In this document: in pieces, positions 18,664 through 64,000 of the stretch
How positions within the stretch are numbered: position 1 is the stretch's first letter
Layout of the letters: each line of letters begins with the position of its first letter
Assembly: GCA_026709265.1 (NCBI GenBank)
Contig: JAPOTI010000115.1
Location: 1 to 64,000 of the forward strand
Source: Paracoccaceae bacterium
Lineage (GTDB): Bacteria; Pseudomonadota; Alphaproteobacteria; Rhodobacterales; Rhodobacteraceae
Length of the DNA: 64,000 nt
Reading direction: 5' to 3'
Made by a program: the position numbers and the translations under genes
Notes under the pieces: model-generated
Seen by the model: only the letters and a program-made list of their open reading frames with translations
What the model was told of the DNA's origin: nothing
The model's database searches: none

Positions 18664-18782
18664 CCCGCATTTCCCGATAGAAACTGTCAAATGGTTGTCG
18701 CTGCCGCGTGCACTTGCCGAAGGTCATCGAGGAACATAGGAGCGGGTGGCGGCGATTCCCTGACTGTTTGCAAAGGACCAAC

Positions 18783-48262: not shown

Positions 48263-48300
48263 TTTATCCTCCTGTGAGTCTTGAAGAAGTGGAATCGGGG

Positions 48301-49323
48301 TCATTTACCCCCACGATTGCGGATCTGTTCCAGGAGTACTGCGAGAATGAGGAACAGCCCCACAAAAAACTGCTGCCACAACGCCGGTATGCCCGCGAGC
48401 AGCAGCGAGTTTCGGATGAGTTCGATGAGGGCGGCACCTATAGGTGCGCCCAGTGCAAATACAATTCCGCCCATCAGATTGGCGCCACCGATCACGGTCG
48501 CCGCGATTACGGTCAGTTCCCAGGTGAAGCCCATACCATTGGTAACAGAACCAGTGTAGCCTACGAAAAGGAACGCTGAGAGCCCCGCGCAAAGTGAGCA
48601 TACAACATAAACTGACACAACGACGCGCTCGACGGGGATACCGGCAAGTTTGGCAGCATGTGCGTTGCCACCGATGGCAATGACCCAGCGACCCCAGGTC
48701 GAGAAACGCCAAACCCACCAGAAGACTGCAGTCAGTATGATCAGTACCCAGACCACATTGGGCACGCCCAGAACGCTTTCGCCGCCGATCCATTCAAAGA
48801 GATCCTGATCCGGACCGAACTGGTAAATCATCTGGTTGTTGGACACGACCCGGGCCAGAGAAACGACGATTGAAAGCATGCCCAGCGTGACCACGAAAGG
48901 CGGCATTCGGAGATACGCGATGAGTATGCCATTGACCATGCCGACGGAAGCGGCGACCAGCATGCAACCCAGGAAGCCAAGTTCGATGCCATAGCCAGCC
49001 CGCATGATCAGGCCGGTGACGATTCCGGTGAGTCCAACCAGCGATCCGACACTGAGATCAATGCCTGCAGTACAAATCACTGCGGACATGCCGAGTGCCA
49101 TAATCCCGAAAAACGCCATGTTGCGGGTGATGTTGAACATGTTGCGCTCGGTCATGAAGGCATCAGAGACGAAACTCATGACCACCCCAAGTGCCACGAG
49201 GGCAAGGAAGACCCAAAAGGGTTGCGTGCGGACAATTGCCGCAAAACCAGAGACCTCCTGACGTGAGGTAATACTCTCATCGATCGCGGCATGATCTTCT
49301 TGATATGGTGATGAATTGGTCAT
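48301..49323 (-). CDS. Sugar/polyol ABC transporter permease
   Basis: Inner-membrane permease of 340 aa, RbsC/FrcC-like, with about eight to ten helices. Typical sequences are GMSAVICTAGIDLSVGSLVGLTG, MPPFVVTLGMLSIVVSLARV, GGNAHAAKLAGIPVERV and IAATVIGGANLMGGIVFALGA. It overlaps the ATPase stop by four bases and precedes the binding-protein gene by 38 bases. Confidence 0.92.
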   Translation of the reverse strand: MTNSSPYQEDHAAIDESITSRQEVSGFAAIVRTQPFWVFLALVALGVVMSFVSDAFMTERNMFNITRNMAFFGIMALGMSAVICTAGIDLSVGSLVGLTGIVTGLIMRAGYGIELGFLGCMLVAASVGMVNGILIAYLRMPPFVVTLGMLSIVVSLARVVSNNQMIYQFGPDQDLFEWIGGESVLGVPNVVWVLIILTAVFWWVWRFSTWGRWVIAIGGNAHAAKLAGIPVERVVVSVYVVCSLCAGLSAFLFVGYTGSVTNGMGFTWELTVIAATVIGGANLMGGIVFALGAPIGAALIELIRNSLLLAGIPALWQQFFVGLFLILAVLLEQIRNRGGK

Positions 49324-50060
49324 GCTGATTCAATGGCCCCGATGATGAGTCCGGTCACTTCTTCCGGTGTGGTTTGACTGATATGCTTGTCGGCGACCTT
49401 GGCACCGCGGCGCAATACGGCGACGCGGTCGCAGACTTCGAAGACATCAGGCATCCTGTGGGAGACAAGGATCACGGCGTGCCCCGTGTCCTTCAGCTGA
49501 TGGATCAGTGCCAGAACCTCCTTCACCTGGCGAACCGAGATTGCCGCGGTGGGTTCATCCATCAACACGAGCTTCGGATCCGACAGGCGTGTCCGCGCGA
49601 TTGCGACGGCTTGCCGCTGGCCTCCTGACATTTGCCGAACCAGATCACGTGGACGCGTTTCTGACTTGAGCTCGGTAAAGAGATCGCCAGCTTGCCTGTA
49701 CATCGCAGCGTGGTCAAGCATCGAGAATGGCCCCAACCTTTTCTTGAGTTCGCGGCCAAGAAACACGTTGGCCCCGGCAGTCAGATTGTCGCAGAGCGCA
49801 AGATCCTGGTAAACGATTTCGATCCCGGATTCCCTTGCATCGATGGGTTTATGAAATTCAACCGCATTGCCTTCGATCCGAATTTCACCTGAGGTCGGCA
49901 GGAAGTTTCCGGCGACTATTTTCATGAGCGTCGACTTGCCGGCGCCGTTATCTCCCATCAGCCCAACAGCTTCACCGCGTGCGACGTCAAGATCAACACC
50001 CTGCAATGCATGGATCGCACCAAAGTTCTTTGTGATGCTCCTGAGCTCCAGGAGGCTCAT
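49320..50060 (-). CDS. Sugar ABC transporter ATP-binding protein (single-domain)
   Basis: ATPase of 246 aa with Walker A GDNGAGKSTLMK, signature MSGGQRQAVAIART, Walker B LVLMDEPTAAISVRQ and switch His ILVSHRM. It has one nucleotide-binding domain, unlike the fused two-domain RbsA and XylG proteins, and so resembles FrcA. It presumably works as a homodimer under the adjacent permease. It overlaps iolG and the permease gene by four bases each, so the block is tightly coupled. Confidence 0.92.
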   Translation of the reverse strand: MSLLELRSITKNFGAIHALQGVDLDVARGEAVGLMGDNGAGKSTLMKIVAGNFLPTSGEIRIEGNAVEFHKPIDARESGIEIVYQDLALCDNLTAGANVFLGRELKKRLGPFSMLDHAAMYRQAGDLFTELKSETRPRDLVRQMSGGQRQAVAIARTRLSDPKLVLMDEPTAAISVRQVKEVLALIHQLKDTGHAVILVSHRMPDVFEVCDRVAVLRRGAKVADKHISQTTPEEVTGLIIGAIESA

Positions 50061-51100
50061 ATTTCTTTTCCTCTCAAGCTTTCAGTCTTCTGCCCTTCAT
50101 GCGCATACAGCGCAGGCATTTCGGCACGCGCGATGTCAACGCGAGCCCCGGCTTTCAAAGACGCCATTCCCGCCTCCGCAACGCGTGTCGCACAGTATCC
50201 ATCCCAGGCATTGGCCGCAGACGAATCTGGATGCTCCGTCACGATGCTGTTCAACCATGCCCTGTTCTGCCGCCGGTAGGCCTCTGCAAAACGCGGCCGC
50301 CAATCCGCATCATAGGAGTGGGTTGAATGCAGTGCCAAGTCATAACTGGCATGTACGGGCGTGCTGAGACTGACCGATCCGCGCTCACCGACCAGTTCGC
50401 CGCGGACATCGTAACCATAGGCCGCATTGTTGTTGATCTCGATGTTTACGAGTTGGCCGTCAACAGTTTCCAGAACCATCATGACAGGTGCTATCGACTT
50501 CGTTTTCTGTCCTTGAAACGCGGTCATGGATACATATTCCGTGCCAAGAACAAAGCGGCATATGTCGAATTCATGCGGTGCTGAATTGGAGATGGCCATT
50601 TGACCCGTGAACCAATCCGGGGCTGCCATGTTTCGATGGAAATTGTGCATCATGACGGCCTTGCCGAGAGTTCCTTCGTCAAATGCAGCTTTCATTGCCA
50701 TATAGGATTGGTCAAATCGACGCATGAATCCTGTCTGGATCAGCCGAAGTCCGGCCTGCAATTCAGCCGCGATCACCTCAAGACATTCCTGGGAGGTCGG
50801 GGCAAGTGGTTTTTCACAGAGTGTCGGCTTGGACGCCGCAATCGCGGCAATGGCCAGGGGGGCATGTGTATCGTCCGGGCTCGCAATCAGCACGGCATCG
50901 ACGTCGCTGCGCGTAATGGTGGCCATGGCGTCGGTGGCAACGTCTGATGCTCCCAGCGCGTCGGCAACGCTGCGTGCACGATTTTCTCTTGCATCGCAGA
51001 CGACCTGCAAATGTGCGCCCGGGAGTTCCTCGGCTATGATCCGGGCATGATCGCGACCCATGATACCAGCCCCGATGATGGCGACTCGCACACTCATCAT
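50057..51100 (-). CDS. iolG: Gfo/Idh/MocA oxidoreductase, probably inositol 2-dehydrogenase
   Basis: NAD-dependent dehydrogenase of 347 aa with the Rossmann motif AIIGAGIMGRDHARI, the EKP signature TLCEKPLAPTS and the substrate-site segment HEFDICRFVLG with His-Asp. The NNNAAYGYDVRGELVGE stretch resembles the conserved region of myo-inositol 2-dehydrogenases. Its position between inositol genes and an importer supports that role, the first oxidation of inositol to inosose. Gene naming is moderately secure, since scyllo-inositol or other cyclitols are also possible. Confidence 0.82.
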   Translation of the reverse strand: MMSVRVAIIGAGIMGRDHARIIAEELPGAHLQVVCDARENRARSVADALGASDVATDAMATITRSDVDAVLIASPDDTHAPLAIAAIAASKPTLCEKPLAPTSQECLEVIAAELQAGLRLIQTGFMRRFDQSYMAMKAAFDEGTLGKAVMMHNFHRNMAAPDWFTGQMAISNSAPHEFDICRFVLGTEYVSMTAFQGQKTKSIAPVMMVLETVDGQLVNIEINNNAAYGYDVRGELVGERGSVSLSTPVHASYDLALHSTHSYDADWRPRFAEAYRRQNRAWLNSIVTEHPDSSAANAWDGYCATRVAEAGMASLKAGARVDIARAEMPALYAHEGQKTESLRGKEI

Positions 51101-51918
51101 TTACCCGCGGTCAACTTTGTGGTTGGACCGGGGGCCTGACCATCGTAACCGCCCCAGACAGACTGATCAAAATGAATCACCGATCCTGTCATCATCCCGG
51201 AATCTTCGGATGCCAGAAACAAGACGGCACGGGCGACTTCCGCCGGGTCGAGAAGTCGCCCAAAGGGAAGGTTTGCACAGGCCTTGGCCTCCCAGTCGGG
51301 ATCACCCGATTCCTTTAACTGCAAGGCCCGTTCGTGATCTGATGCCATCCAACCGATATCCAGTTGGTTGACATGAATACGGTTTCGCATCAGTGCATAG
51401 CCAGCGCTTCGGGTCAAGGTCGAGAGAGCAGCCTTCGATGCACAATATGGCGCGATAAACGGTTGGCCGGCACGCGATGAGGTCGAACCGATATTGATGA
51501 TCCGTCCTTCAATAGCCTCGCGTTCCATGAGTTTGACAGCATCTTGCATCAGGAAGAATGGCGCTCGCGTGTTGACAGCAAACATGGCGTCGAAAAGCTC
51601 AGATGTGGTATTCAAAAGGTTACCGCGATCGGTGAGGCCGGCAGCGTTCACCAAGATATCCACGCGTCCAAATCTTGCGTCTGCAGCCGGAATGACGGTG
51701 CGAACATCCTCGATCTCACCGAGATCGGCGGCAAACATCTCAACCACGACCCCGGTTTCACCGGTGATGGCTTGAGCCCGTTTCTGGCCTTTCTCCTTTC
51801 CCCGCCCGACAATCATGATGCCTTCTGCCCCTGCCCGGGAGAAGAGAAGCGCGATGGCAGCACCAAGCCCCTGCGTACCACCGGTGATGACGGCGACCTT
51901 GCCATCGATCCGATTCAT
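51097..51918 (-). CDS. SDR-family oxidoreductase of the inositol cluster
   Basis: Classical short-chain dehydrogenase, 273 aa from the ATG at 51918. It has cofactor motif TGGTQGLGAAIALLF, the NAAG element LVNAAGLTDRGN, and catalytic Ser and YxxxK in INIGSTSSRAGQPFIAPYCASKAA. It stops inside the iolG start (ATGA). It may oxidise a second cyclitol or an intermediate. The ORF track extension to 52218 is not supported. Confidence 0.88.
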   Translation of the reverse strand: MNRIDGKVAVITGGTQGLGAAIALLFSRAGAEGIMIVGRGKEKGQKRAQAITGETGVVVEMFAADLGEIEDVRTVIPAADARFGRVDILVNAAGLTDRGNLLNTTSELFDAMFAVNTRAPFFLMQDAVKLMEREAIEGRIINIGSTSSRAGQPFIAPYCASKAALSTLTRSAGYALMRNRIHVNQLDIGWMASDHERALQLKESGDPDWEAKACANLPFGRLLDPAEVARAVLFLASEDSGMMTGSVIHFDQSVWGGYDGQAPGPTTKLTAGK

Positions 51919-52391
51919 ACGGGTTTCTCTTGGCCGGCATCCGCTGACAGGTTCATGAAAGCGGTGTTCCTTGAAACGATGGGGGCGTAGCCAAATCGGG
52001 CTGTGGGCATGTGACCCAAACTCCGAGTCCTGGTCTCCTGCGGAAATTACCGGTGTCGAAAATGACCTTCTGGGTGCTCTCCGTCGCCTTGGCGGGAGAC
52101 GCCGGACTGGCGCGTGTGGCGTAGCAAGACATGTCGTCTGTTCCCGCAGTCGCTGAAATGGATCTTGGGCCAATCCTGGTGAACAAGCTGCACAAAAAAC
52201 GCATCGTTGCTTGGGCAAGCGACACGCAAAAGATCTTTGGCCCCATTATCCACCCCTCCCAGGGTGCCTCTTTGGGCACCCCTGAATAATTCGCCGACAA
52301 TGAAAGCATTTTACCGGTGGGTTTGCAATGCCACTTCTGCGAAGAACTGATCAACCTGTCGTTTGAGCGTGTCTGCCTTCCCAAAACGTGA
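51919..52391. other. Intergenic region between iolE and the SDR gene
   Basis: About 470 bases within the minus-strand inositol cluster. It holds a hairpin CAGGGTGCC-TCTTTG-GGCACCCCTG (52260-52284) with no T-run, possibly a processing or stability element ending the iolD-iolE transcript. A promoter for the SDR-iolG-ABC block must lie here if they are separate, but I found no strong match. Open frames in this stretch show no family sequence. Confidence 0.4.
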
Positions 52392-53312
52392 TCAGTTGCT
52401 GTCGATTTTATGGATATCCAGGATCTCATAACCCGCTTCCAGAAGATGGTTTTGCATGGTCTGAAAGCCGATTCTGGCATATTCGAGGGGCGGTGCTTGT
52501 ACCGGATCCTGCTCAGCCTCGACCACAAACCATCCTTCATAACCATGATCAGCGAGGCATTTCACACATGGCAAGAAATCAAGATCGCCATCGCCCGGTA
52601 CCGTAAAGGCCCCCTTCAGGACGGCATCAAGAAAACTTTCGTGATTTCGATCCAGTTGATCCGTGACCGTGCGGCGAACATCTTTGGCATGAAAATGCGC
52701 GATTCGTCCCACATGTCGTTCAAGTGTCGGGAGAATGCGACCTCCTGCGAACGCGAGATGCCCGACATCAAACAGGAGATCTACCGCTTCGCCCGTCCAG
52801 TTCATGATACAGTCGATATCGCCTTCCGACTCGATGACTGTGCCCATGTGATGGTGCAAGGCAATGGGCATTCCTGATTCGGCACACCATTCGGCAAAGG
52901 ATGTCAGGTGACGACCGTAGATGCGCATCTGATCGTCATCGAGCCGCGGGCGCTCATGGAGCGGTGTTTTTCGTTTGTCCTGGATTGTTTCCGTCGTTTC
53001 ACCATAGACAAGGCAAGGGGCGTTGAGCTCTCTGAACATCGCCAATTGTGCCCATACCCGATCTTTTTCGGCCTCGAGGTCGTTGCCAAGAACGGTACCT
53101 GAGTACCATCCACCACAAATTGAGAGTTCATGCTCTGCAAGAATGGGCCCCAGTTCTTCAGCATTGTCAGGAAACTTGCCACCGGTCTCGATCCCCGAGA
53201 AGCCTGCAGCACGCGCTTCGCTGAGGCAGGCTTCCAGGGGCGTATTGCCTCCCAGTTCCGGCAAATCGTCATTCGTCCATGCGATGGGTGCAATGCCAAG
53301 ACGTGCGCGCAT
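52392..53312 (-). CDS. iolE: Inosose dehydratase IolE
   Basis: Xylose-isomerase-fold enzyme of 306 aa that dehydrates 2-keto-myo-inositol to a trihydroxycyclohexanedione. Features are GIAPIAWTNDDLPELGG at the N-terminus, SGIETGGKFP, ALHHHMGTVIES and the metal-site segments LFDVGHLAFAGG and HFHAKDVR. It starts two bases after iolD, so the two consecutive pathway steps are co-translated. Confidence 0.9.
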   Translation of the reverse strand: MRARLGIAPIAWTNDDLPELGGNTPLEACLSEARAAGFSGIETGGKFPDNAEELGPILAEHELSICGGWYSGTVLGNDLEAEKDRVWAQLAMFRELNAPCLVYGETTETIQDKRKTPLHERPRLDDDQMRIYGRHLTSFAEWCAESGMPIALHHHMGTVIESEGDIDCIMNWTGEAVDLLFDVGHLAFAGGRILPTLERHVGRIAHFHAKDVRRTVTDQLDRNHESFLDAVLKGAFTVPGDGDLDFLPCVKCLADHGYEGWFVVEAEQDPVQAPPLEYARIGFQTMQNHLLEAGYEILDIHKIDSN

Positions 53313-53314
53313 CG

Positions 53315-55168
53315 TCAGACTCCAACCCGTTGACGCGCCCTGATACCTTCCTGTTCAGCGCGCGCCGCCTGCACCTCTTTCCGTTCGCTGACCTCGGGCA
53401 CCCCGAGATCCCAGGAGGCATCACCCGGGGTCCATTGATAAGCATCCGTGACTATAGAAATGACTGTGGTACGGTCGTTTTCCAACGCCCACTGCAGAGC
53501 GGACTCAAGATCTGCAATCGACTCGACGGTGCGACTCAGAGCTCCCTGCGCTTCGGCATGTTGAGCAAAATCCACGGCAAATGGTTCCTTGACGCGACAA
53601 TCGGCGATCAGATTATTGAATGATTCGCCACCTTTGCCATTCTGCAGCCTGTTGATGACGGCGAATCCACCGTTATCACACACGATGACAATCATCTTGT
53701 GGCCGCTGAGCACCGAAGAATAGATATCAGAGTTCATCATCAGGTATGAACCATCGCCGACAAGCACGATCGGCGGCGAATCTTTTGCCGCGGCCATTGC
53801 TGCACCCCAACCACCGGCGATCTCGTATCCCATGCAGGAAAACCCGAATTCGCAGTCAAAACTGTCGGGATTCTTGACTCGCCAGCCCTTGGTGACTTCT
53901 CCGGGAAGCCCGCCCGCAGCCGTGATCATGCGGCAATTGTCAGGTGCCCATCGATTCACCGCACCGACCACCTGGGCGTAAGTCGGCACGGGTGTGTTGG
54001 TTGGTTTTTGTAAACCATCCAGCAATTTGTTCCAGGCGGCAAATTCGCTTTGGCCACGCGCCAGCCAGCTGGGATCAGCAACCCAGTCCCCAAGCTGTGC
54101 GTCCAGCTCGACGAGTGATTCACGTGCATCACCAACTACAGCAAGTGATCGGTGTTTTGCGGCGTCCCAGCGCGCGGTATTGATGGAGATAAACGCGGCA
54201 TCATGTGCGAAAGCCGTCCATGATCCGGTGGTGAAGTCCTGCAGTCTCGTACCCACTGCAAGGATGACATCAGCATCCTGCGCGTGGCGATTCGCCGATT
54301 CAGACCCAATCACGCCAATGGGACCGATATGTGCAGGATGCTGGTGGGTGACGGTGCCCTTGCCGGAAATGGTCTCGGTCAGGGGAATGTTTCTCGCACG
54401 TGCAAAGTCGGCAAGCGTTGTTTCGGCGAGTGAATAATGAACGCCACCGCCAGCGATAATGAGCGGTCGCGCCGCCTGCCTGAGCTGTTCTGCAGCCCGC
54501 CTGACGCTGGCGGCGTCGGGGCGCGGGCGCTGTAGCGAATGACGGGTTCGCTCGAAGAATTTCAGCGGGTAATCATAAGCGATTTCCTGTGTGTCCTGGC
54601 ACAGGCCGATGAAAGCTGGACCACATGTCGCAGGATCAAGCATGGTGCCGACCGCTTGCGGTAGTGACGAGATGATTTGTTCCGGGTGGGTGATTCGATC
54701 CCAGTAGCGGGAGACTGCACGGAAACTGTCATTGACGGTGGTGCCCGGATTGTCAAAATGTTCAACCTGCTGCAAGACAGGATCGGGTCTTCGATTGGCA
54801 AATGTATCACCAGCCAGAATCAAGAGTGGCAAACGGTTGGAATGAGCGACCCCGGCCGCAGTGACCATATTGGTTGCACCCGGACCAATGGAACTCGTTG
54901 CCACCATGATCTGCTGTCGTTTTCTGGCCTTGGCAAAGGCAATCCCTGCCAGCGCCATTGATTGTTCATTCTGACCGCGCCAGACGGGAAGTTGATCCTG
55001 GTGTTTCCACAACGCTTCTGCCAGGCAGGTGACATTGCCATGGCCGAAGATTCCGAACAGTCCGGCGAACAGGGGTAAGTCCTGTCCATCTTCCAGTTCG
55101 ACCCGCTGGCTGCACAGAAACCTGACCAGCGCCTGTGCCATCGTCAGGCGTACGGTATTCGGACTCAT
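53315..55168 (-). CDS. iolD: 3D-trihydroxycyclohexane-1,2-dione acylhydrolase IolD
   Basis: Thiamine-diphosphate enzyme of 617 aa that opens the inositol ring after the dehydratase step. The N-terminal PYR domain has GIFGHGNVTCLAEAL and WRGQNEQSMALAGIAFAKA, and the C-terminal ThDP site is VLVGDGSYLMMNSDIYS with CDNGGFAVINRL. A strong GGGAGG site precedes the ATG. It is the first gene of the minus-strand inositol run, divergent from an aldolase gene. Pathway partners IolB and IolC are absent from the window. Confidence 0.93.
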   Translation of the reverse strand: MSPNTVRLTMAQALVRFLCSQRVELEDGQDLPLFAGLFGIFGHGNVTCLAEALWKHQDQLPVWRGQNEQSMALAGIAFAKARKRQQIMVATSSIGPGATNMVTAAGVAHSNRLPLLILAGDTFANRRPDPVLQQVEHFDNPGTTVNDSFRAVSRYWDRITHPEQIISSLPQAVGTMLDPATCGPAFIGLCQDTQEIAYDYPLKFFERTRHSLQRPRPDAASVRRAAEQLRQAARPLIIAGGGVHYSLAETTLADFARARNIPLTETISGKGTVTHQHPAHIGPIGVIGSESANRHAQDADVILAVGTRLQDFTTGSWTAFAHDAAFISINTARWDAAKHRSLAVVGDARESLVELDAQLGDWVADPSWLARGQSEFAAWNKLLDGLQKPTNTPVPTYAQVVGAVNRWAPDNCRMITAAGGLPGEVTKGWRVKNPDSFDCEFGFSCMGYEIAGGWGAAMAAAKDSPPIVLVGDGSYLMMNSDIYSSVLSGHKMIVIVCDNGGFAVINRLQNGKGGESFNNLIADCRVKEPFAVDFAQHAEAQGALSRTVESIADLESALQWALENDRTTVISIVTDAYQWTPGDASWDLGVPEVSERKEVQAARAEQEGIRARQRVGV

Positions 55169-55272: not shown

Positions 55273-56094
55273 ATGATTTCAAACCCCATCAGAGAGCTGA
55301 AAGCGCAAGGCAAACCAGTCGTCAATGGCTGGCTCACAATGGGAAGTTCTTTCGCTGCCGAGATCCAGGCGGAGCTGGGCTTTGACAGTTTGACAGCTGA
55401 CATGCAGCATGGGCTTCTGGATTATCGTGACGCGTTGGCAATATTCAGTACATTGCGTGCGAGTGGCGTGGCACCGCTGTCCCGTGTTCCATGGTTGGAA
55501 CCTGGAATCATCATGAAGACACTGGATGCGGGTGCCTTGGGAATCATTTGCCCGATGATCAATAATCGTGAGCAGGCAGAGACCCTTGTTTCCTATAGCC
55601 ACTATCCGCCACAGGGAAGCCGCAGTTTTGGCCCGATACGCGCGTCAGTTTCTGTCGGTTCAGACTATGTCGAAAAAGCCAATGATACGATCGTCTGTCT
55701 GGCGATGGTGGAAACAGCGGAAGCCTATGAAAAGCGGGACGAGATCGTTTCCACTCCCGGTCTTGACGGGATTTATATTGGCCCCTCCGATCTTGCGCTT
55801 GGACTCCATGACGGGCGCATGGGGGTTGGTTTTGACCGCAGGGAAAAGGAAATACTGGACCCCATTAAACGTATCCTCGAGTCAGCCAAACGCCATCATG
55901 TCATTGCCGGTATTCATTGCGGCTCGGCCGAATATGCTGCCGATGCCATTGGATGGGGTTTCGACCTTGTCACTTTGTCAAGCGATGCCCGGTTGCTGGT
56001 TGAGGCCGCCACGGCAAGATTGGCAAAAATCCGTTCGCTTCTCGGGGATGAAGACTCAAGCCCTGATGGCGCATCTGGCGCGGGAGGCTATTGA
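55273..56094 (+). CDS. HpcH/HpaI-family aldolase
   Basis: Class II pyruvate-type aldolase of 273 aa. Family motifs are FDSLTADMQHGLLDY, VPWLEPGIIMKTLDAGALG with IICPMI, HYPPQGSRSFGPIRA and IYIGPSDLALGL. Relatives split 2-keto-3-deoxy or 4-hydroxy-2-oxo acids into pyruvate and an aldehyde. It is transcribed divergently from iolD. It could act on an end product of cyclitol breakdown, but its link to the inositol pathway is positional only. Confidence 0.88.
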   Translation: MISNPIRELKAQGKPVVNGWLTMGSSFAAEIQAELGFDSLTADMQHGLLDYRDALAIFSTLRASGVAPLSRVPWLEPGIIMKTLDAGALGIICPMINNREQAETLVSYSHYPPQGSRSFGPIRASVSVGSDYVEKANDTIVCLAMVETAEAYEKRDEIVSTPGLDGIYIGPSDLALGLHDGRMGVGFDRREKEILDPIKRILESAKRHHVIAGIHCGSAEYAADAIGWGFDLVTLSSDARLLVEAATARLAKIRSLLGDEDSSPDGASGAGGY

Positions 56095-56180
56095 CCTGAC
56101 TGTGACCGGTTTGAGATTCAGGCTGTGGCGCGTCGATTCGACCGGGAGTTCGATCACTCCGGATTGAGCGAAATTGCCTC

Positions 56181-56648
56181 ATGAGTCATCAGGACCAGTA
56201 TATTGACGGGACTGCGGTCGCAGTCGCGGGTGCTGCCGTCTTGATCATGGGCACATCGGGGAGCGGCAAATCGACACTTGCCCTTGACCTGATGTCACGC
56301 GGTGCGGAGCTCGTATCAGATGACAAGGTGCTGGCCCGGCGCATCGGGGAACAGGTTGTGTTGTCGGCGCCACAAACCATTGCTGGAATGATCGAGGCAC
56401 GCGGTGTTGGTCTCCTTGCCGTGAGATATTGTGAGGCGCGACTCAAACTGATTGTCGATCTGGACGCTGAAGAAACTGCGCGGCTGCCACAACAGACAGA
56501 GTCGATATGCGGTGTGACGTTTCCGCTGATTCGGGCGCGCGGCCGGCACCGTATCGCGGGGACTGTCATGGTGACTTTGTGTAATGACTTTCATCCTGAG
56601 ACGATGTCGATTCACCAGCCAGCCAGGGACAAAGACAGAAACAGGTGA
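56181..56648 (+). CDS. hprK: HPr kinase/phosphorylase, short alphaproteobacterial type
   Basis: Sensor kinase of 155 aa that would phosphorylate the HPr protein of the nitrogen/carbon PTS on a serine. P-loop MGTSGSGKSTLALDLM (residues 23-38), SDDKV (acidic catalytic pair at 47-48) and the signature IEARGVGLLAVR are present. It lacks the N-terminal domain of Gram-positive HprK, as usual in alphaproteobacteria. There it normally sits with chvG/chvI and PTS genes. Here it follows an aldolase gene by 86 bases, an unusual place. Confidence 0.85.
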   Translation: MSHQDQYIDGTAVAVAGAAVLIMGTSGSGKSTLALDLMSRGAELVSDDKVLARRIGEQVVLSAPQTIAGMIEARGVGLLAVRYCEARLKLIVDLDAEETARLPQQTESICGVTFPLIRARGRHRIAGTVMVTLCNDFHPETMSIHQPARDKDRNR

Positions 56649-56832: not shown

Positions 56833-57849
56833 CTATCCGCCCCAAGTGTCTGACAATCGGAAGCCTGCGGGGAAGGGGTCACTTGGGTCCAAACCGAGCT
56901 GACTGAATCCATAGATCCAGCACTGACCTGACACGCGGTTTCGGGTCGCTTCATATGTCCCCACATTGGTGATGCCCAAAAGTTCCGTGGTAAACTCGCC
57001 TCCGATAATGGAGCGCGACACGGCTATGTCTCCAGGCGTGGCCAGCCCCGCCGCGTAGCGCACGGCCATGTTGGCGTTCGATCCCGTGCCGCAGGGTGAT
57101 CTGTCGACTCGCCCCGGACGCAGGGTTGTGCAGGTCCGTATCGCGCCATCCGGTTCGGTTGACCGGAACATGACATAGGCCAACCCGTTCAGGGCTGGAG
57201 TGATTGGGTGCTGCGCCTCTTCGGTTTGGGCGATCATGTTGCGCAGGGTGATACCACGCGTGGCAAGATCACGCGCGTTGTCGGGAGTGATCGACAACCC
57301 GATTTGATCCACATCCACCAGCGTATAGAAGACACCGCCGAAACACAGGTCGTAGCGGATCGTCCCCCAGTCTGGTGTCTCGATTGCACCGTCTTTTTTG
57401 GTAACAAAAGATGGCGGCATATCTAGTGACACCCCTGTCACCTTGCCATCCACGCAACTGGCCTGTGCCTGCACCAGGCCGGCTGCCGTGTCCAGCGTCA
57501 CGATGGTCTCGGGCTCAGTCATCGGGATCGCCCCGGTTTCAAGCAAAGCGGTCACCGCACACATTGCATTTGAGCCTGACATGGCATGGGCTTGATCCGG
57601 TTGCAGGACAATGAACCCAACGTCAGCTGCCGGATCGCAGGCGGGCACCAGCAAACAGAAAGACCCCGCCGGGGTCGAACGCGGTTCTGAGCACAACAGT
57701 TGGCGTAAACTGTCATCGACTGTGTTCAGATGATCGAGCTTGTTGGCCATGGTCGCTCCGGGAATGTCCAGCACTCCACCGGTCACGACCCGGCCGATTT
57801 CGCCAGCGCAATGCACATCGACCGTTTGCAGAGTTCTGGACCAGCGCAT
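56833..57849 (-). CDS. Proline racemase-superfamily enzyme with Ser/Cys active site
   Basis: Hydroxyproline epimerase or related enzyme of 338 aa. The family N-terminus is LQTVDVHCAGEIGRVVTGG. The first catalytic position in AHAMSGSNAMC is Ser91 instead of Cys, and the second in DRSPCGTGSNAN is Cys253. Superfamily members with a Ser/Cys pair have been reported as 4-hydroxyproline epimerases, while Cys/Thr members are 3-hydroxyproline dehydratases. Being co-directional with a DadA-type oxidase and a DHDPS-family lyase suggests hydroxyproline or a similar imino acid as substrate. It is the last gene of the run. Confidence 0.88.
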   Translation of the reverse strand: MRWSRTLQTVDVHCAGEIGRVVTGGVLDIPGATMANKLDHLNTVDDSLRQLLCSEPRSTPAGSFCLLVPACDPAADVGFIVLQPDQAHAMSGSNAMCAVTALLETGAIPMTEPETIVTLDTAAGLVQAQASCVDGKVTGVSLDMPPSFVTKKDGAIETPDWGTIRYDLCFGGVFYTLVDVDQIGLSITPDNARDLATRGITLRNMIAQTEEAQHPITPALNGLAYVMFRSTEPDGAIRTCTTLRPGRVDRSPCGTGSNANMAVRYAAGLATPGDIAVSRSIIGGEFTTELLGITNVGTYEATRNRVSGQCWIYGFSQLGLDPSDPFPAGFRLSDTWGG

Positions 57850-57868
57850 GGTATCGTCCTTTCCGTTT

Positions 57869-58627
57869 CTAGGTCACAGCCTGAGCACCAGTGATTTCCA
57901 CCACAGAGCCACAGAGGTATTTTGCCTCGTCCGAGGCCAGGAACGCGATGAGGGCGGCAATCTCATCAGGCTCGCCAATCCGGCCAAACGGCACCAGCAC
58001 GTTTAGATCTTCGAGACAACGGCCCGACCTCGCCAGATTGCTTTCCAGCATTGGCGTTCGAACCTCGCCCGGTGCCACGCCATTCACGCGAATGTTGTCA
58101 GGCGCATAATCGCGGGCAAGGTTCTGGGTGAAGGCGACAACGGCCGCCTTGGTGGTGTTGTATGCGATATGACCGGGCGCCGGATACATCCCCCATTGCG
58201 ACGCTGTGTTGACGATGGCCCCACCGCCCTGGTCCTGCATCACAGGGATGACCGCCTGACACATATGGAACAGCGCATCGACATTAACGGCGAAGGATTG
58301 TCGCCAATCCTCGACAGACAGTTCCATTAGCGCACCTCGCCGCATCAGCCCGGCATTGTTACACAACACATCTATCTTGGACCCTGTGCTGGTCCAATCC
58401 CGGACGAAGTCCTGGATTTCCGCGGGATCGGTCAGGTCAAACGCGTGGGCTTTTGCCTGGCCTCCGGCGGCATGTATGTTCCCCGCGACCGTTTTCGCTC
58501 CTGCAAAATCTGCGTCTGTGACACAGACCAAAGCGCCTTCGGACGCAAAGCGTTGGCAGATCGCGCTGCCGATACCACCTGCCCCGCCGGTGACCACAAC
58601 GGATTTTCCCATAAATCGCAATATCAT
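57869..58627 (-). CDS. SDR-family oxidoreductase (catabolic island, SDR 1)
   Basis: Classical SDR of 252 aa with TGGAGGIGSAICQRF, the acidic Asp of VCVTDADFAG suggesting NAD preference, LCNNAGLMRRG and the catalytic Ser/Tyr/Lys in NTASQWGMYPAPGHIAYNTTK. The ATG at 58627 overlaps the SDR 2 stop by four bases and is chosen, although an ATG at 58612 is also possible. It precedes the racemase-family gene by 19 bases. Substrate is unknown. Confidence 0.88.
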   Translation of the reverse strand: MILRFMGKSVVVTGGAGGIGSAICQRFASEGALVCVTDADFAGAKTVAGNIHAAGGQAKAHAFDLTDPAEIQDFVRDWTSTGSKIDVLCNNAGLMRRGALMELSVEDWRQSFAVNVDALFHMCQAVIPVMQDQGGGAIVNTASQWGMYPAPGHIAYNTTKAAVVAFTQNLARDYAPDNIRVNGVAPGEVRTPMLESNLARSGRCLEDLNVLVPFGRIGEPDEIAALIAFLASDEAKYLCGSVVEITGAQAVT

Positions 58628-59385
58628 GACCTCATCTGACTTGCGCCGTTTACATCCAGAATAGCCCCAGTGAGCGACACCTGCGACGGCTGCAATACGA
58701 ACGCTACAAGTTCGGCCAGTTCTTCCGGTTCGGCCATTTGGCCCACCGGGATGCCCGAAAGGGCTGCCGCTTCGCCATGTTTGTGAATGTAATCGTCGGA
58801 CATCTCGGTACGCACCCAACCCGGCGCAATAGCTACAGCCGTGATTCCATCAGCGCCAAAACCGCGTGCGACACTTTGTGTCAGGTTGATCAGGGCCGCT
58901 TTGGTTGCACCATAAGACATCGCCTCGGTACGGTAACCGCCCTGCCCCGCGCGCGAGGCCATGTTGATGATCCGCCCGCCGCCTTGCGCCCGAAAATGCC
59001 GGATCGCTGCGCGGCTCAGATCGGCGGCAGCCATCAAGTTGACCTGAAGATCACCCTGCCAGGCGCGATGCCAAGCATCCAAAGGATCATCTACGGATGA
59101 AGCTGTGAGAATGCCGGCATTGTTGATCAACGCGTGAATACGGCCCGCTTGGGCCTCAGCGGCTTCCCACAACGCGTTTGGCCCCAGTGGATCGGACAGA
59201 TCGGCTGAAAGCGCAATAGCCCCTTGCCCGATCTGCGCCGCCAGCGCTTCGGCATGGATGGCGTTGCTGTGATAGTGCAGCAAAACACGCGCACCTGCGG
59301 TCGCCAATTCGCGGGCAACGGCCTGACCAATGGATCCCGTGGCCCCTGTCAACAGGACGGATGTACCTTGCAGAGGACGGGTCAT
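58624..59385 (-). CDS. SDR-family oxidoreductase (catabolic island, SDR 2)
   Basis: Classical SDR of 253 aa with TGATGSIGQAVAREL, LINNAGILTASS and the catalytic residues in NMASRAGQGGYRTEAMSYGATK, ending with GAILDVNGASQMRS. Its ATG overlaps the stop of a 40-codon ORF (59382-59504), evidence that a larger gene once lay upstream in the same operon. It is coupled to SDR 1 by a four-base overlap. Confidence 0.88.
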   Translation of the reverse strand: MTRPLQGTSVLLTGATGSIGQAVARELATAGARVLLHYHSNAIHAEALAAQIGQGAIALSADLSDPLGPNALWEAAEAQAGRIHALINNAGILTASSVDDPLDAWHRAWQGDLQVNLMAAADLSRAAIRHFRAQGGGRIINMASRAGQGGYRTEAMSYGATKAALINLTQSVARGFGADGITAVAIAPGWVRTEMSDDYIHKHGEAAALSGIPVGQMAEPEELAELVAFVLQPSQVSLTGAILDVNGASQMRS

Positions 59386-59504
59386 TCCACATCTCCCCCG
59401 AACGCTTTGCGAGCATCGCTCAGCCGCTCCATAACACTGTCCAGACCTGCCATCAAAGCCTCGGGATCACCGGCGTTTGCAAAGGGAGTTGACAGAGCCT
59501 CCAT
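59382..59504 (-). pseudogene. Truncated 3' end of an upstream operon gene
   Basis: A 40-codon ORF (MEALSTPFANAGDPEALMAG... to ...FGGDVE) ends in the ATGA overlap with SDR 2, the coupling expected of two real operon genes. A stop lies eight codons upstream in the same frame, and beyond it IS66-type sequence begins. It is most simply the tail of a gene cut by the insertion. The family is not recognisable from so little sequence. Confidence 0.45.
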
Positions 59505-59642
59505 GAGTTCAGAAGAATTGGTATTCTACAATGAATTTTGCCAGATATTTCATTGGGGCTTCAAACGCTTGGATATCATTGGGTCCTCTGATTCCTGCCA
59601 ACTCAAGTGTGTCATCTCCCTTGCAAAGATCTCGGTAACTGC

Positions 59643-59947
59643 TCACTCCGTCTCGGGGGTGGCTTGGTTGTCATGCAGGTCAATCATGCGGACGGCATTG
59701 CTGGCTCGTGCGATCTGGATGGCGACGAGGAGGTTGTATCCAAGCGTGGCCATGGAGCTGAGATAGCTTGAGATCCGGCACCATGCGTCGGCGTGGAACT
59801 GGTGCGGAAGCACTCGCTGACCTTGATCTTGACCTTTGCCATGCGGATTTTCTGCTCATCGGCGTTGTTCGTGAAGCTGGCATGGGGGTCAGCCATGAAG
59901 CACAGGACGGAGTCCACGTGCTTGACGAGGCTGTGGCGCGTCAATCA
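59643..59947 (-). pseudogene. IS66-type transposase C-terminal remnant, frameshifted
   Basis: The minus strand encodes HSLVKHVDSVLCFMADPHASF followed by FTNNADEQKIRMAKVKIKV and SECFRT. After a frameshift it continues AWCRISSYLSSMATLGYNLLV and AIQIARASNAVRM. This matches the conserved C-terminus of IS66-family transposases (FTNN-AEQ-RM-KVK-KISGCFRT...FCRI-SYLST). The 5' three quarters of the gene, including most of the DDE domain, is missing. Short TGAGAAT direct repeats flank its right side (about 59950-59980). It is a dead mobile-element fragment inserted in the catabolic cluster. Confidence 0.7.
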
Positions 59948-60086
59948 ACCTGAGAATTTGCGACAAACAGGGTGAGAATCCTGGGGAGTGGCGGGTCAGA
60001 CGCGTCATGCTCTGCACGGTCAGAGCGTACAGGAATGCTGCCTGATGGTGATCCAGCCAGAATGTCTCCTGTTCAATCCGTGTCAT
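59889..60086 (-). CDS. Short ORF fused into the IS remnant
   Basis: A 65-codon ORF starting at 60086 has a strong GAGGAG ribosome binding site and the start MTRIEQETFWLDHHQAAF, which reads like genuine protein. Its last third runs out of frame into the transposase remnant. It may be the surviving 5' end of the gene disrupted by the insertion, driven from the palindrome-containing region upstream. I do not recognise a family. Confidence 0.35.
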   Translation of the reverse strand: MTRIEQETFWLDHHQAAFLYALTVQSMTRLTRHSPGFSPCLSQILRLIDAPQPRQARGLRPVLHG

Positions 60087-60228
60087 GAAATTCTCCTCGT
60101 TCATGTGAACATAGCGAGGATTGACAGGACGCCTCATCCCGTCAGCAGCAGGACATACCATCAGATTGTGCGCCGCAACTGCCCTTCCGGGCCGGTCGTA
60201 TCAGCCCGAGAGATCAATATTCGAGTTT

Positions 60229-60243
60229 ATATGTTGACAACAA
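60229..60243. promoter_or_regulatory. GntR-like operator half-copy
   Basis: ATATGTTGACAACAA repeats the core of the 32-bp palindrome 80 bases away, with TGTTGACA close to the yGTmkACr pattern of GntR-family sites. A further TTGTCTACA at 60299-60307 fits the same pattern. Confidence 0.4.
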
Positions 60244-60310
60244 CGACACAGACTGACCCTGAATCAATGGGTTGGAATCAAGAGCCAACATAATACGGTT
60301 GTCTACATTA

Positions 60311-60342
60311 ACTGTGATATGTTGTTAACAACATATCACAGT
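60311..60342. promoter_or_regulatory. 32-bp perfect palindrome, candidate GntR-family operator
   Basis: ACTGTGATATGTTGTT followed by AACAACATATCACAGT is an uninterrupted 32-bp perfect palindrome, 13 bases after the SDR 3 stop. It has no T-run, and with two related sites nearby it looks more like an operator than a terminator. It would control transcription leftwards toward the disrupted gene and SDR 2. Confidence 0.5.
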
Positions 60343-60355
60343 GGCACGTGGGTCT

Positions 60356-61057
60356 TCACATATGCCGGGTGACGCCGCCATCGACACGCAGAGATTGGCC
60401 AGTAATGTAACTGCTGTCATCGCTCAGCAGAAAGGCGGCCGTTTTTGCCTGTTCCTCGGCCCGCGCCAGACGACCAAGGGCGGACATCTCGGCAAATTTA
60501 TGCGGCAGATCGAGACTGTCGGTGAAGCCGGGGAGCAGGCAGTTCATGCGAATGTTCGCTGGACCGTAGCGATCTGAGAACTGCTTGGTAAAGCTGGACA
60601 CGCCAACGCGATAGACGCTGGAGGTGGGGAAAATCAGCGACGGCTCAAAAGCCGAAAAGGTGGTGATGTTGACAATCGAGCCGCCACCCTGCGTTTCCAT
60701 CACCGGGGTCAGCAGCTTGGCCATGCGGATGACTGGTTTCAGAACCAAATCATGGGCGCGATCCCAATCTTCCTCTGGGATATCCAGCAGATCACCCTTG
60801 GGCGGGCCACCGACATGGATCAGGCAGGCATCGATACGGCTATAAGTGGTCATGGCAAGGTCAAAGACCGCCTGCGTATCCGTTGCGTTCTCGGCCTTAC
60901 CGCGATGCGCGACGTCGCCCAGTTCCTGTGCCAGCAACTCGCAGGACTCAGAAGGAGACATCAGCGCAAGCTTGTAGCCCCGCGCGTGCATTTCGCGTGC
61001 GGTGGCGGCACCCATTCCGCGTCCGCCACCAATGATAAGGCATGTCTTTGCAACCAT
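60356..61057 (-). CDS. Atypical SDR-family protein lacking catalytic Lys (SDR 3)
   Basis: SDR fold protein of 233 aa from the ATG at 61057, which has AGGAG seven bases upstream. Cofactor motif IIGGGRGMGAATAREM is intact. The usual NNAG is replaced by IHVGGPPKG, and the YxxxK position reads SSVYRVGVSSFTKQ, with no Lys four residues after Tyr. A related SDR branch with TSSxxRAGL and IRMNNVLPGF at these places is known to me from annotation, so this is a subfamily trait and not decay. It ends with YITGQSLRVDGGVTRHM. Its reaction is uncertain. Confidence 0.85.
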   Translation of the reverse strand: MVAKTCLIIGGGRGMGAATAREMHARGYKLALMSPSESCELLAQELGDVAHRGKAENATDTQAVFDLAMTTYSRIDACLIHVGGPPKGDLLDIPEEDWDRAHDLVLKPVIRMAKLLTPVMETQGGGSIVNITTFSAFEPSLIFPTSSVYRVGVSSFTKQFSDRYGPANIRMNCLLPGFTDSLDLPHKFAEMSALGRLARAEEQAKTAAFLLSDDSSYITGQSLRVDGGVTRHM

Positions 61058-61077
61058 GGTCCGCTCCTGTTTCTGTG

Positions 61078-62328
61078 TCAAAATCGGTCAACCCGATAGG
61101 GATGCAGGTCAATGTCAGGTTTCTCGCCGGCGATGAGTTGCCCCATCAGACTGGCCGTGGTGGCCGCATGGGTCAGACCCAAATGGCCATGGCCAGTTGC
61201 ATAGAATACTCCAGGAACCTTGGCAGAGGCGGATATAACCGGCACAGTATCCGGGAAGGCGGGGCGATGTCCCATCCATTCACTTGTCTCCTCAAGATGT
61301 AGATTCGGCAGCACTTTACGCGCCCGCTTCACGGTAATTTTCGGACGCCGCCAATCTGGGGGTGCGTCCAAACCGGCCATCTCGACCGTGCCGCCAACGC
61401 GGATACCTCCTGCGGTGGGAGAGACCATGAATGCCATGGCCGGCCAAATGATCGAGTGCTCCAGATGAATGCCCGGCGCATTGATCTGAGTGTGATAGCC
61501 GCGCTCGGTCTCCAGTGGGATCGGCTCGCCTAGCTGTTTGGACAACCGACCCGTATGGGCTCCTGCGGCCAGAACGACCTGGTCCGCCTTTATTCTACGG
61601 CCCTCTGCCAAAGTCACGCTGGTGATACGGTCAGCACACTCAAAGCTCGTAACCTTGCCGCGTTGAATCTGACCGCCTTGCCCGATGAAAGCCTCGGTCA
61701 GGCGGATGACAACGTTATGGGGATCGCGCACAGTGCGGTTGTCTGGCAACAGTACCGCCTTTTGAATCATCGGTGCGATTTCTGGTTCCAGATCGTGCAG
61801 GGCATTGCGGTCCAGTACTTCATAACCGAAACCGTGACGGTCCAGCATGTCCAACCGCTCACGATCGCCGGCAAACTCGGCCTCGTTGGCATAGAGCGAC
61901 AAGCAGCCAGTTCTGCTAAGATCCTCGGACAGGCCCAGATCGGCCATAAGCCGCTCGGTATCGGCCAGAGACCGACGGCAGAGGATCGCGCCTGTCGCCT
62001 CAAGCTGGCGCAGTTTTGATGGACGCCCGGCCCAGAAAAACCGCGCAAACCATGGAATCAGAAGCAGGGCATAGCCCGGAGACACCCGGATCGGACCTTT
62101 GGGATGCAGCACCCAACCGGGGGTCTGCCGCCAGACCGACGGGCGAGACACCGGCATGAATTCTGTCACGGCAATCGACGCCAGGTTGCCAAAAGATGCA
62201 CCTTGACCGGGTTCATTTGCGTCTATCAGCGTGACCTGTGAGCCGCGTTTTTGCAGCTCATAGGCGATGGCCGAGCCGACGATACCGGCACCCACAACAA
62301 GACAGTGTTTGGATGGATCTTGTCGCAC
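61078..62328 (-). CDS. FAD-dependent D-amino-acid dehydrogenase (DadA/DAO family)
   Basis: Flavoprotein of about 416 aa with the FAD motif LVVGAGIVGSAIAYELQKRG, the DAO signature around GQGASFGNLASIAVTEFMP, and a C-terminal GHRPAFPDTVPVISAS with YATGHGHLGLTHAATT typical of DadA and D-hydroxyproline dehydrogenases. No ATG precedes the FAD motif in frame after the upstream gene, so the GTG at 62328 is chosen. The longer track ORF would overlap the lyase gene by 82 bases. In a hydroxyproline pathway it would oxidise cis-4-hydroxy-D-proline to the pyrroline. Confidence 0.86.
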   Translation of the reverse strand: MRQDPSKHCLVVGAGIVGSAIAYELQKRGSQVTLIDANEPGQGASFGNLASIAVTEFMPVSRPSVWRQTPGWVLHPKGPIRVSPGYALLLIPWFARFFWAGRPSKLRQLEATGAILCRRSLADTERLMADLGLSEDLSRTGCLSLYANEAEFAGDRERLDMLDRHGFGYEVLDRNALHDLEPEIAPMIQKAVLLPDNRTVRDPHNVVIRLTEAFIGQGGQIQRGKVTSFECADRITSVTLAEGRRIKADQVVLAAGAHTGRLSKQLGEPIPLETERGYHTQINAPGIHLEHSIIWPAMAFMVSPTAGGIRVGGTVEMAGLDAPPDWRRPKITVKRARKVLPNLHLEETSEWMGHRPAFPDTVPVISASAKVPGVFYATGHGHLGLTHAATTASLMGQLIAGEKPDIDLHPYRVDRF

Positions 62329-62390
62329 CAGATGGCACCATAAAAAAATAGCGAAGGAAGGCCGGAACCGACCTTCACCCTGCGCTTGGT

Positions 62391-63281
62391 TTACATCGCC
62401 AGAATAGGCTGCATGGCTTCGGTGAACTCGGCTTTTTCTGCTTCGGCCAGTGGTCCCAACGGCGCGCGGCATTCGCCAACATCCAGCCCCTGCAACTCAG
62501 CGCCGAACTTGATCTTCTGCACATATTTGCCGCTCTCGAGAATATTCATGGCACGGTACAGCTTTTTCATCAGTTCCCTTGCTACGACCAGTTCGCCCGC
62601 CTTGTACAGGCGATCCAACTCGCAGCAGGCCTTGGCCATGCAGTTGGACGGCCCGCAAATCCAGCTTTCGGCACCCCAGAACATGAAGTCGAGCGCGATG
62701 TCGTCCGAACCTGAAATTAACTGGATTTTACCTTCATAGCGCGCGGCAATATCGATTGCCCGCTGCAACACGCCCGAGCTTTCCTTGATTCCGATGACCC
62801 GCGGGTTGTCGGCAAAATGGTCCATCAACTCGAACGAGATATCGGCACCGTCTTTCAATGGATAGCTGTACAGCACAATGTTCACATCGACTTCAGCCAG
62901 AACCGTTTCATAGTGTTTGATCAGTTCTTCTTGCGTGGGGCGCGTGTAGAACGGTGGTGCAAGCAGCACGTTGTCATAGCCGATGTCCTTAGCCAGCGCG
63001 GTCTGCTCGATCACTTCGCGGGTAGCTGGGGCATTGGTGCCCGCGATCAGAAACTCATCTTCATTGGCAAAGTCCTTGACGAATTGCAGGACCCGGCGAC
63101 GTTCTTCTGTCGATTGGCTGAAATATTCGCCGGTCGAGCCGTTTGGTACCCAGCCCGACACGCCCGCATCGCGGAAATGTGTCAGCAGGTTTTCGAAGGC
63201 CGGAAAGTTGATTTTGTCATCCGCCCCAAACGGCGTGATCAGCGCGGGCATGACACCCGAGAGTTTGACATTGAAGCTCAT
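62391..63281 (-). CDS. DHDPS/NAL-family lyase, possible pyrroline-4-hydroxy-2-carboxylate deaminase
   Basis: Class I aldolase/lyase of 296 aa. It shows VMPALITPFGADDKIN, the substrate-carboxylate loop NGSTGEYFSQS, tyrosines in IVLYSYPLKDG and the Schiff-base lysine in VIGIKESSG (Lys166). The family includes dihydrodipicolinate synthase, keto-deoxy-sugar-acid aldolases and LhpC-type deaminases. The DadA-type and racemase-family neighbours favour the LhpC role, while the sulfatase neighbour leaves a sugar-acid aldolase possible. It overlaps the sulfatase stop by four bases. Confidence 0.85.
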   Translation of the reverse strand: MSFNVKLSGVMPALITPFGADDKINFPAFENLLTHFRDAGVSGWVPNGSTGEYFSQSTEERRRVLQFVKDFANEDEFLIAGTNAPATREVIEQTALAKDIGYDNVLLAPPFYTRPTQEELIKHYETVLAEVDVNIVLYSYPLKDGADISFELMDHFADNPRVIGIKESSGVLQRAIDIAARYEGKIQLISGSDDIALDFMFWGAESWICGPSNCMAKACCELDRLYKAGELVVARELMKKLYRAMNILESGKYVQKIKFGAELQGLDVGECRAPLGPLAEAEKAEFTEAMQPILAM

Positions 63282-64000
63282 TTTGAGGCCCTTTTTCCAG
63301 TGTATTTCAAATATCCGCGCCGCTCGACGATAGGAAACGCGTCACCTCGGCGGACATAGTTGGTGTTTTGCGTGAGTGGTCGAGGCGTGAAGTCCCAAAG
63401 TTCTTCGCGTCCCTGCGACAGGGCTTGATCCACGATTTTGCGAGCCGCCTGACTGGCCATCACGTCGGATGGCAGCGTGTCCAGCGACCAGGTTTGTTTA
63501 GCCAGACGGGTCAGCCGGTCTTCATCCGGGTCACCCTGTCCTGCCAGATTGGTCAACTCCAAAGGATCGGTGCCCAAGTTGTAGAATTGCGGCGGGTACG
63601 CGCGGGAAATCACCAGTTTCTTGTCGCCATCTCGCACACAGACCCTGGGGGCTGCCGTGCCACCGTCAATATGCTCAACAAAAACCGGCGCTTCAACCGG
63701 CTCACCCCGCAACGCGGGAACAAGGCTGCGGCCGTCCAAAGGCGTCTTGATCGTGTCCGGGTTCATTCCGGCCACCTCGCATAGTGTCGGGAATATGTCG
63801 ACAAGATTCGCAGGCACAGAAATTCGGCCTGCGGGGTAGTCAGGATGTGCAATGATCAAAGGCACACGGATGGCCGGATCAAACAGAGTCTTTTTGAACC
63901 ACATGCCACGCTCGCCGATCATATCGCCATGGTCCGACGCAAACAGAACCACGGTGTTGTCGGCAAAACCACTTTGATCCAAAGCCTGCATGAGTCGACC
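63278..64000 (-). CDS. Sulfatase, choline-sulfatase-like (partial, cut by window end)
   Basis: C-terminal 238 or more residues of an alkaline-phosphatase-fold sulfatase, with the 5' part beyond the window. The metal site FASDHGDMIGERGMWFKKTLFD and the RVPLIIAHPDYPAG segment are typical of the BetC group. So is the tail GREELWDFTPRPLTQNTNYVRRGDAFP with LGTDPLELTNLAG. The active-site CxPSR motif would lie outside the window. It is translationally coupled to the lyase gene, so desulfation may be an early step of the same pathway. Confidence 0.8.
   Translation of the reverse strand, partial: GRLMQALDQSGFADNTVVLFASDHGDMIGERGMWFKKTLFDPAIRVPLIIAHPDYPAGRISVPANLVDIFPTLCEVAGMNPDTIKTPLDGRSLVPALRGEPVEAPVFVEHIDGGTAAPRVCVRDGDKKLVISRAYPPQFYNLGTDPLELTNLAGQGDPDEDRLTRLAKQTWSLDTLPSDVMASQAARKIVDQALSQGREELWDFTPRPLTQNTNYVRRGDAFPIVERRGYLKYTGKRASK

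Follow-up and report, generated by a model that had tools for sequence, protein, structure and literature searches.

We suggest that the gene cluster at one end of a 64,000-nucleotide stretch of DNA from a marine bacterium (Paracoccaceae) is a trans-4-hydroxyproline operon supplemented with a dedicated sulfatase, which is cytoplasmic and formylglycine-dependent, and that it serves to import and desulfate O-sulfated hydroxyproline; we give this reading a probability of roughly 0.55. The stretch, called the window in the following, comprises bases 1–64000 of the 74,355-base contig C11 (JAPOTI010000115.1) in a 3.14 Mb genome of the order Rhodobacterales (GCA_026709265.1). All seven genes of the cluster that a first-pass annotation had described are present where it had placed them, on one strand (minus, Table 1). 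The gene content, its conservation and linkage, the catalytic residues and the changed substrate pocket of the sulfatase were determined by computation.

The sulfatase was described in the first-pass annotation as similar to choline sulfatase, which is correct for the fold and incorrect for the substrate pocket. The full-length protein reaches 587 bits in the choline-sulfatase equivalog model TIGR03417 (cut-off 433), and its orthologues carry the RefSeq name betC. Its fold matches the choline sulfatase BetC of S. meliloti (TM 0.88, 40 % identity), and all catalytic and metal-binding residues are identical to those of BetC (Asp14, Gln15, Cys54, Arg58, Lys102, His104, His201, Asp296, His297, and Lys309). 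In the pocket, the changes Glu386Gly, His145Ser, and Trp143Gly are found in all 18 members of the sulfatase clade and Tyr144Val in 17 of them (Thr in the remaining one), whereas all 11 choline sulfatases compared have the four residues intact. The same 18 and 11 proteins also differ throughout by Met310Lys and Tyr383His. Trp129 is kept, so that of the set recognizing the quaternary ammonium group (Glu386 and the Trp129/His145 clamp) only this residue remains. Glu386 is reportedly fully conserved in more than 80 putative choline sulfatases, and its exchange for Leu causes an about 1000-fold loss on choline sulfate with the activity on an aryl substrate unchanged (PMC5870055); Trp129 and His145 clamp the ammonium group in choline sulfatase (PMC9063841). 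The clade occupies one side of a single branch (support 100/99) and has a single origin in the tree, and TIGR03417 is a broad model that is blind to the pocket change. A carboxylate on the leaving group would be in keeping with an acidic residue lost and Lys and His gained. The catalytic fold starts at residue 6 and leaves no room for a signal peptide; therefore a location in the cytoplasm is probable, with the substrate desulfated once it has been imported. The genome also has a gene for a formylglycine-generating enzyme (C60:14368–15198). The surrounding region (G000:C60:12000–31000, locus L118) contains four more sulfatase-like genes, and one of them (L118:9299–10759) passes the choline-sulfatase model (485 bits) with neither the choline pocket nor that of the operon clade, residue 386 being Pro.

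The second line of evidence is the linkage of the sulfatase to the hydroxyproline genes. The sulfatase and DHDPS genes of the window overlap by 4 bp, and with the window counted, 12 loci have the sulfatase gene directly upstream of the DHDPS gene. The overlap is exactly 4 bp in eight of these loci and 1 bp in two. In a further locus, that of Leisingera ANG-Vp (L025), it is obscured by N; a sulfatase–DHDPS fusion considered for this locus was rejected, as the long open reading frame (ORF) is a run of N. The linked loci come from Rhodobacterales (Ruegeria, Leisingera, Defluviimonas, Sulfitobacter, Mameliella), Rhodospirillales, Pelagibius, and rhizobial Shinella. The minimal Shinella operon consists of exactly transporter, sulfatase, DHDPS, oxidase, aldehyde dehydrogenase (ALDH), and epimerase genes behind a divergent GntR gene, and in Rhizobium CB3060 an epimerase gene follows the sulfatase gene. 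In addition, sulfatase and epimerase diverge together (r = 0.95 over 91 pairs). True choline sulfatases with an intact pocket adjoin choX and LysR genes. Most of the linked loci were found via the epimerase, and sulfatase-first searches were made as a second route (see below). The functional link of the sulfatase proposed in the first-pass annotation is supported, and so is its idea that a sulfated imino acid is used; we take such a compound as the probable additional substrate.

Judged from the predicted proteins, the core of the operon is the published 4-hydroxyproline route, in which these enzyme superfamilies cluster and are induced by 4-hydroxyproline (PMC4113996). The epimerase has its best PDB matches in 4lb0 and 4q2h (393 bits), both structures of the 4-hydroxyproline epimerase (4HypE) type, and Ser91, Ser93, Asn94, and Cys253 are invariant in 65 aligned rows. 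A Ser/Cys catalytic pair with a supporting Asn has been described for 4-hydroxyproline epimerase (PMC4113996), so by its residues the enzyme is predicted to be competent for the 4HypE class. As to the class with Thr replacing the second Cys (cited structure), the second residue is Cys here and the score is 304 bits against a cut-off of 550. A second gene of the proline racemase superfamily (37 % identical) is located at G000:C55:8906–9925. The best NCBIfam model of the oxidase is D-amino acid dehydrogenase, below its cut-off; a longer oxidase ORF reaching to 62472 was rejected because it is unsupported by relatives, the homologue of the nearest relative starting at the equivalent residue. In the DHDPS-family enzyme Lys166 and Tyr138 are invariant in 47 rows. 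In the DapA (4-hydroxy-tetrahydrodipicolinate synthase) model TIGR00674 it scores 201.4 bits and stays below the cut-off of 206.15; another DHDPS-family gene elsewhere in the genome is 29 % identical to that of the operon. The operon's DHDPS is 82–84 % identical to rhizobial homologues located with epimerase and ALDH genes.

When GTDB genomes were scanned with the epimerase, 61 loci with a homologue of at least 45 % identity were found, in which genes were identified by conservation-weighted ORF picking and tblastn. As many of the loci are cut by contig ends, the counts are lower bounds. DHDPS is present in 45 of the 61 loci, the oxidase in 44 (38 close and 6 of a divergent type), the GntR regulator in 34, and the ALDH in 21 (the nearest relative, L004, and 20 others). 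The short-chain dehydrogenases/reductases SDR1, SDR2, and SDR3 occur in 21, 22, and 13 loci, respectively, and the sulfatase in 10. About 40 loci, almost all of them from Alphaproteobacteria, have the core enzymes together, and this clustering is not due to chance; pSymA of S. meliloti has the same gene set without the sulfatase. Clustering in other genomes had been set beforehand as a test by the first-pass annotation. The genes cluster in many genomes and the objection of non-clustering fails, and its epimerase–oxidase–deaminase route of the hydroxyproline type is supported. Its suggestion of a possible new pathway does not hold, as the core was already known and the ALDH is lost in this copy only.

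We suggest the following order of events. The AapJQMP-type ATP-binding cassette (ABC) transporter would take in O-sulfated hydroxyproline, and probably free hydroxyproline too, and the sulfatase would strip the sulfate in the cytoplasm by S–O cleavage like choline sulfatase. The Ser/Cys epimerase is predicted to convert trans-4-hydroxy-L-proline to cis-4-hydroxy-D-proline, which the flavin adenine dinucleotide (FAD)-dependent oxidase would oxidize to pyrroline-4-hydroxy-2-carboxylate. From this compound the DHDPS-family enzyme would form 2-oxoglutarate semialdehyde by deamination and dehydration, and an aldehyde dehydrogenase would yield 2-oxoglutarate.

Several results weigh against this reading. 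No operon enzyme scores above a curated hydroxyproline equivalog cut-off, and therefore each enzyme activity, like the sulfated substrate and the role of the SDRs, is something we infer. The relatives' ALDH likewise exceeds no curated model cut-off and is nearest to betaine-aldehyde models; an attempt to assign it by curated model to 2-oxoglutarate-semialdehyde dehydrogenase failed. For Met310Lys and Tyr383His, closeness to active-site residues is seen in the sequence only. The divergence of the sulfatase correlates weakly with that of DHDPS (r = 0.42), and as the sulfatase is absent from most core clusters it is an accessory. Neither a natural nor an enzymatic occurrence of hydroxyproline sulfate was found in the literature searched, many subscription papers lying outside it. 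Further points of this kind came from the sulfatase-first searches. Members of the close sulfatase clade are rare: a sample of about 395 genomes from the family and another from the order each gave 3, counting that of the window. Among six chromosomal loci from this search L116 and L138 have the full operon. The other four (L113, L114, L115, and L139) have no epimerase or DHDPS genes nearby, and no close DHDPS was found anywhere in their genomes. The most often shared partner of the sulfatase is in fact the amino-acid transporter, the AapJQMP type being kept in L113 and L139.

A class IV aminotransferase gene is present in 4 of the 10 sulfatase-bearing loci compared with 0 of the 51 others, and also in L114 and L139. 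As the transporter is the most shared partner and this aminotransferase recurs in several loci, the sulfatase may act on some other sulfated amino acid, such as a pipecolate derivative or an acyclic hydroxy amino acid with a sulfate group, which would enter by the same transporter while the hydroxyproline genes share the regulation and not the substrate. We consider this possible but doubtful: the tight gene order with the 4-bp overlaps, the co-divergence of sulfatase and epimerase, and the minimal Shinella operon all argue against it. In addition, two of the exceptional loci point to ring hydroxyprolines. L114 has a gene for an aconitase X (AcnX) with cis-3-hydroxy-L-proline dehydratase as its nearest match, and L139 an OCD-family gene with pyrroline-2-carboxylate reductase as its nearest match, both below the cut-offs; enzymes of both types belong to the 3-hydroxyproline route (PMC5144071, PMC4113996). 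The exceptions thus weaken a strict association with 4-hydroxyproline, and their 3-hydroxyproline-type enzymes suggest sulfated hydroxyprolines in a wider sense. At L115, the clade member is near genes for a dimethylsulfoniopropionate-lyase-type cupin and an MttB-family methyltransferase (12742–13494 and 18295–19848), suggesting osmolyte metabolism.

The copy in the window differs from those of its relatives by losses. In L004, whose epimerase is 89 % identical, a 492-residue ALDH is encoded between SDR3 and SDR2. The alignment of the window with L004 ends right after the SDR3 stop codon (60352) and picks up again at 59480, and the 871 bp in the gap contain a C-terminal fragment of an IS66 transposase (Pfam E 3e-5, over cut-off). 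From this synteny break and the IS66 fragment at the ALDH site of L004 it follows that the dehydrogenase was lost from this copy, a local loss. That no aldehyde dehydrogenase was seen in the first-pass annotation is therefore true of this genome's copy, not of the relatives. A plasmid DNA search gave no near match to the IS66-bearing segment and one short distant match. Behind the ALDH gene of L004 there are apparent remnants of a pyrroline-5-carboxylate-reductase-like gene (8017–8415), which is intact in L010 (11073–11873, passing NF005063) and a few other loci.

The first-pass annotation had suggested looking beyond position 64000 for a transporter, a regulator, and an aldehyde dehydrogenase. 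The transporter is indeed there, adjoining the sulfatase gene. Past these genes no regulator or aldehyde dehydrogenase gene was found, the relatives' GntR proteins having no match in C11:60001–74355. About 1.6 kb upstream of the transporter (C11:69069–70650, L003:9069–10650) contain no recognizable gene; this is the site of the divergent GntR gene in relatives and is possibly eroded. Elsewhere in the genome a close ALDH was not found (best 39–40 % identical), and GntR homologues are at most 32 % identical. Since neither a dehydrogenase nor a GntR gene is left in the operon, either a dehydrogenase from elsewhere takes over or this copy is in decay. The IS66 debris and the distance of these best homologues would fit a decaying, non-functional operon. 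We regard this as unlikely, since the other genes are all open, with the catalytic residues kept and 82–93 % identity to the enzymes of the nearest relative, and several unassigned ALDHs are left in the genome that could serve.

The three SDRs were taken in the first-pass annotation as a sign of a possible new pathway. They are optional accessories, because complete clusters without any SDR exist (Shinella L125, Mesorhizobium L035 and L042, Thalassospira L049). SDR1 and SDR2 are usually adjacent and have an invariant YxxxK Tyr and Lys (26 and 25 rows, respectively), whereas SDR3 lacks the catalytic Lys, which is Val in 17 of 17 rows (YRVGV). By analogy one may guess that the SDRs invert the ring hydroxyl via a ketone, 4-oxoproline, as the mammalian SDR BDH2 is a 4-oxo-L-proline reductase (PMC8914325). 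SDR1 was considered as a BDH2-type 4-oxoproline reductase, and this was rejected because BDH2 is outside its best structural relatives. A further alternative is that the cluster handles another cyclic imino acid (3-hydroxyproline, dihydroxyproline, or hydroxypipecolate) which the SDRs and the sulfatase prepare, 4-hydroxyproline not being the main substrate. 3-Hydroxyproline is also accepted by related Ser/Cys epimerases, which are promiscuous (PMC4113996), SDR1 and SDR2 occur in about 22 of the 61 loci, and the ALDH is outside the 2-oxoglutarate-semialdehyde model. Yet this alternative is unlikely in view of the complete SDR-free clusters and of the high identity of the DHDPS to rhizobial homologues beside epimerase and ALDH genes. 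Finally, it is very improbable that a normal choline sulfatase happens to lie in a hydroxyproline operon and provides sulfur, or choline from which glycine betaine is made: the TIGR03417 score, the name betC, and the fold would fit, but the clade has lost Glu386, a residue required for activity on choline sulfate (PMC5870055), along with the His145 clamp and Trp143/Tyr144, and no choX or bet genes are near its members.

Table 1. Genes and segments of the hydroxyproline operon (window positions; C11, positions on the contig)
Feature	Position	Strand	Evidence or remark
Proline racemase superfamily enzyme, predicted 4-hydroxyproline 2-epimerase, Ser91/Cys253 type	56833..57849	-	Pfam PF05544, 338 bits
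SDR1, classical YxxxK (YNTTK)	57869..58627	-	4-bp overlap with SDR2
SDR2, classical YxxxK	58624..59385	-	motif
Replacement segment at the relatives' ALDH site, with IS66 transposase remnant	59481..60351	-	synteny with L004
SDR3, atypical, Lys to Val (YRVGV)	60356..61057	-	motif; best PDB match 4o6v
DAO/DadA-family FAD oxidoreductase, predicted cis-4-hydroxy-D-proline oxidase	61078..62328	-	Pfam PF01266, 213 bits; GTG start
DHDPS-family lyase, predicted pyrroline-4-hydroxy-2-carboxylate deaminase	62391..63281	-	Pfam PF00701
Sulfatase, C-terminal part in window	63278..64000	-	full gene C11:63278-64825, 515 aa, formylglycine motif CAPSR
AapPMQJ transporter genes (ATPase, two large permeases, binding protein; AapJQMP type)	C11:64943-69068		after sulfatase, outside window

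The operon is adjoined on the same strand by inositol-type catabolic genes (IolD, IolE-like, Gfo/Idh, SDR) and a sugar ABC transporter (window 47279–55168). On the plus strand, an HpcH/HpaI aldolase gene and, behind it, a short HPr-kinase-like gene (55273–56648) converge on the operon, and an EIIA-man gene is located on its other side (C11:70666–71046).

The core of the pathway was known before; the new element is a coupled sulfatase with a pocket that speaks against the substrate in its annotation. In the literature searched, which omits many subscription papers, no paper joins choline sulfatase and hydroxyproline, and because of this omission the absence is not proof of novelty. We see an even chance that this is the first dedicated sulfatase for O-sulfated hydroxyproline, belonging to an unrecognized catabolic route for sulfated imino acids in marine and rhizosphere organic matter, and that a clade of "choline sulfatases" is misnamed. 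If so, an identifiable clade of enzymes now carrying the choline-sulfatase annotation works on a different compound, and marine Rhodobacterales and rhizobia encounter O-sulfo-hydroxyproline, or something closely related to it, often enough to keep a dedicated enzyme. The gene would then serve as a defined and testable marker of organic-sulfur cycling. It could also be asked directly where the sulfated compound comes from; one guess is hydroxyproline-rich material of algae or animals.

Compared with known systems, the operon shares with the trans-4-hydroxy-L-proline pathway (PMC4113996) the four enzyme superfamilies, the amino-acid transporter, the Ser/Cys type of epimerase described there and, in relatives, the GntR regulator. 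It differs by the coupled sulfatase and up to three SDRs, and the window copy by the lack of its own aldehyde dehydrogenase and regulator. Genes like those of the cis-3-hydroxy-L-proline pathway (AcnX dehydratase and OCD reductase, PMC5144071) stand beside the sulfatase at L114 and L139 and are absent from the window operon. BDH2 (PMC8914325) has the SDR fold in common with the operon's SDRs and is a precedent for SDR action on the ring hydroxyl of hydroxyproline; unlike BDH2, SDR3 has no catalytic Lys, and BDH2 is not among the best PDB matches of SDR1. The sulfatase resembles BetC of S. meliloti (6fny and 7pth; PMC5870055, PMC9063841) in fold, catalytic and metal residues, Trp129, cytoplasmic location, and the C-terminal tail domain. 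Unlike BetC, the clade has Glu386, His145, Trp143, and Tyr144 replaced, Lys at 310 and His at 383, and a different tail sequence, and it is surrounded by hydroxyproline genes where true BetC is accompanied by choX.

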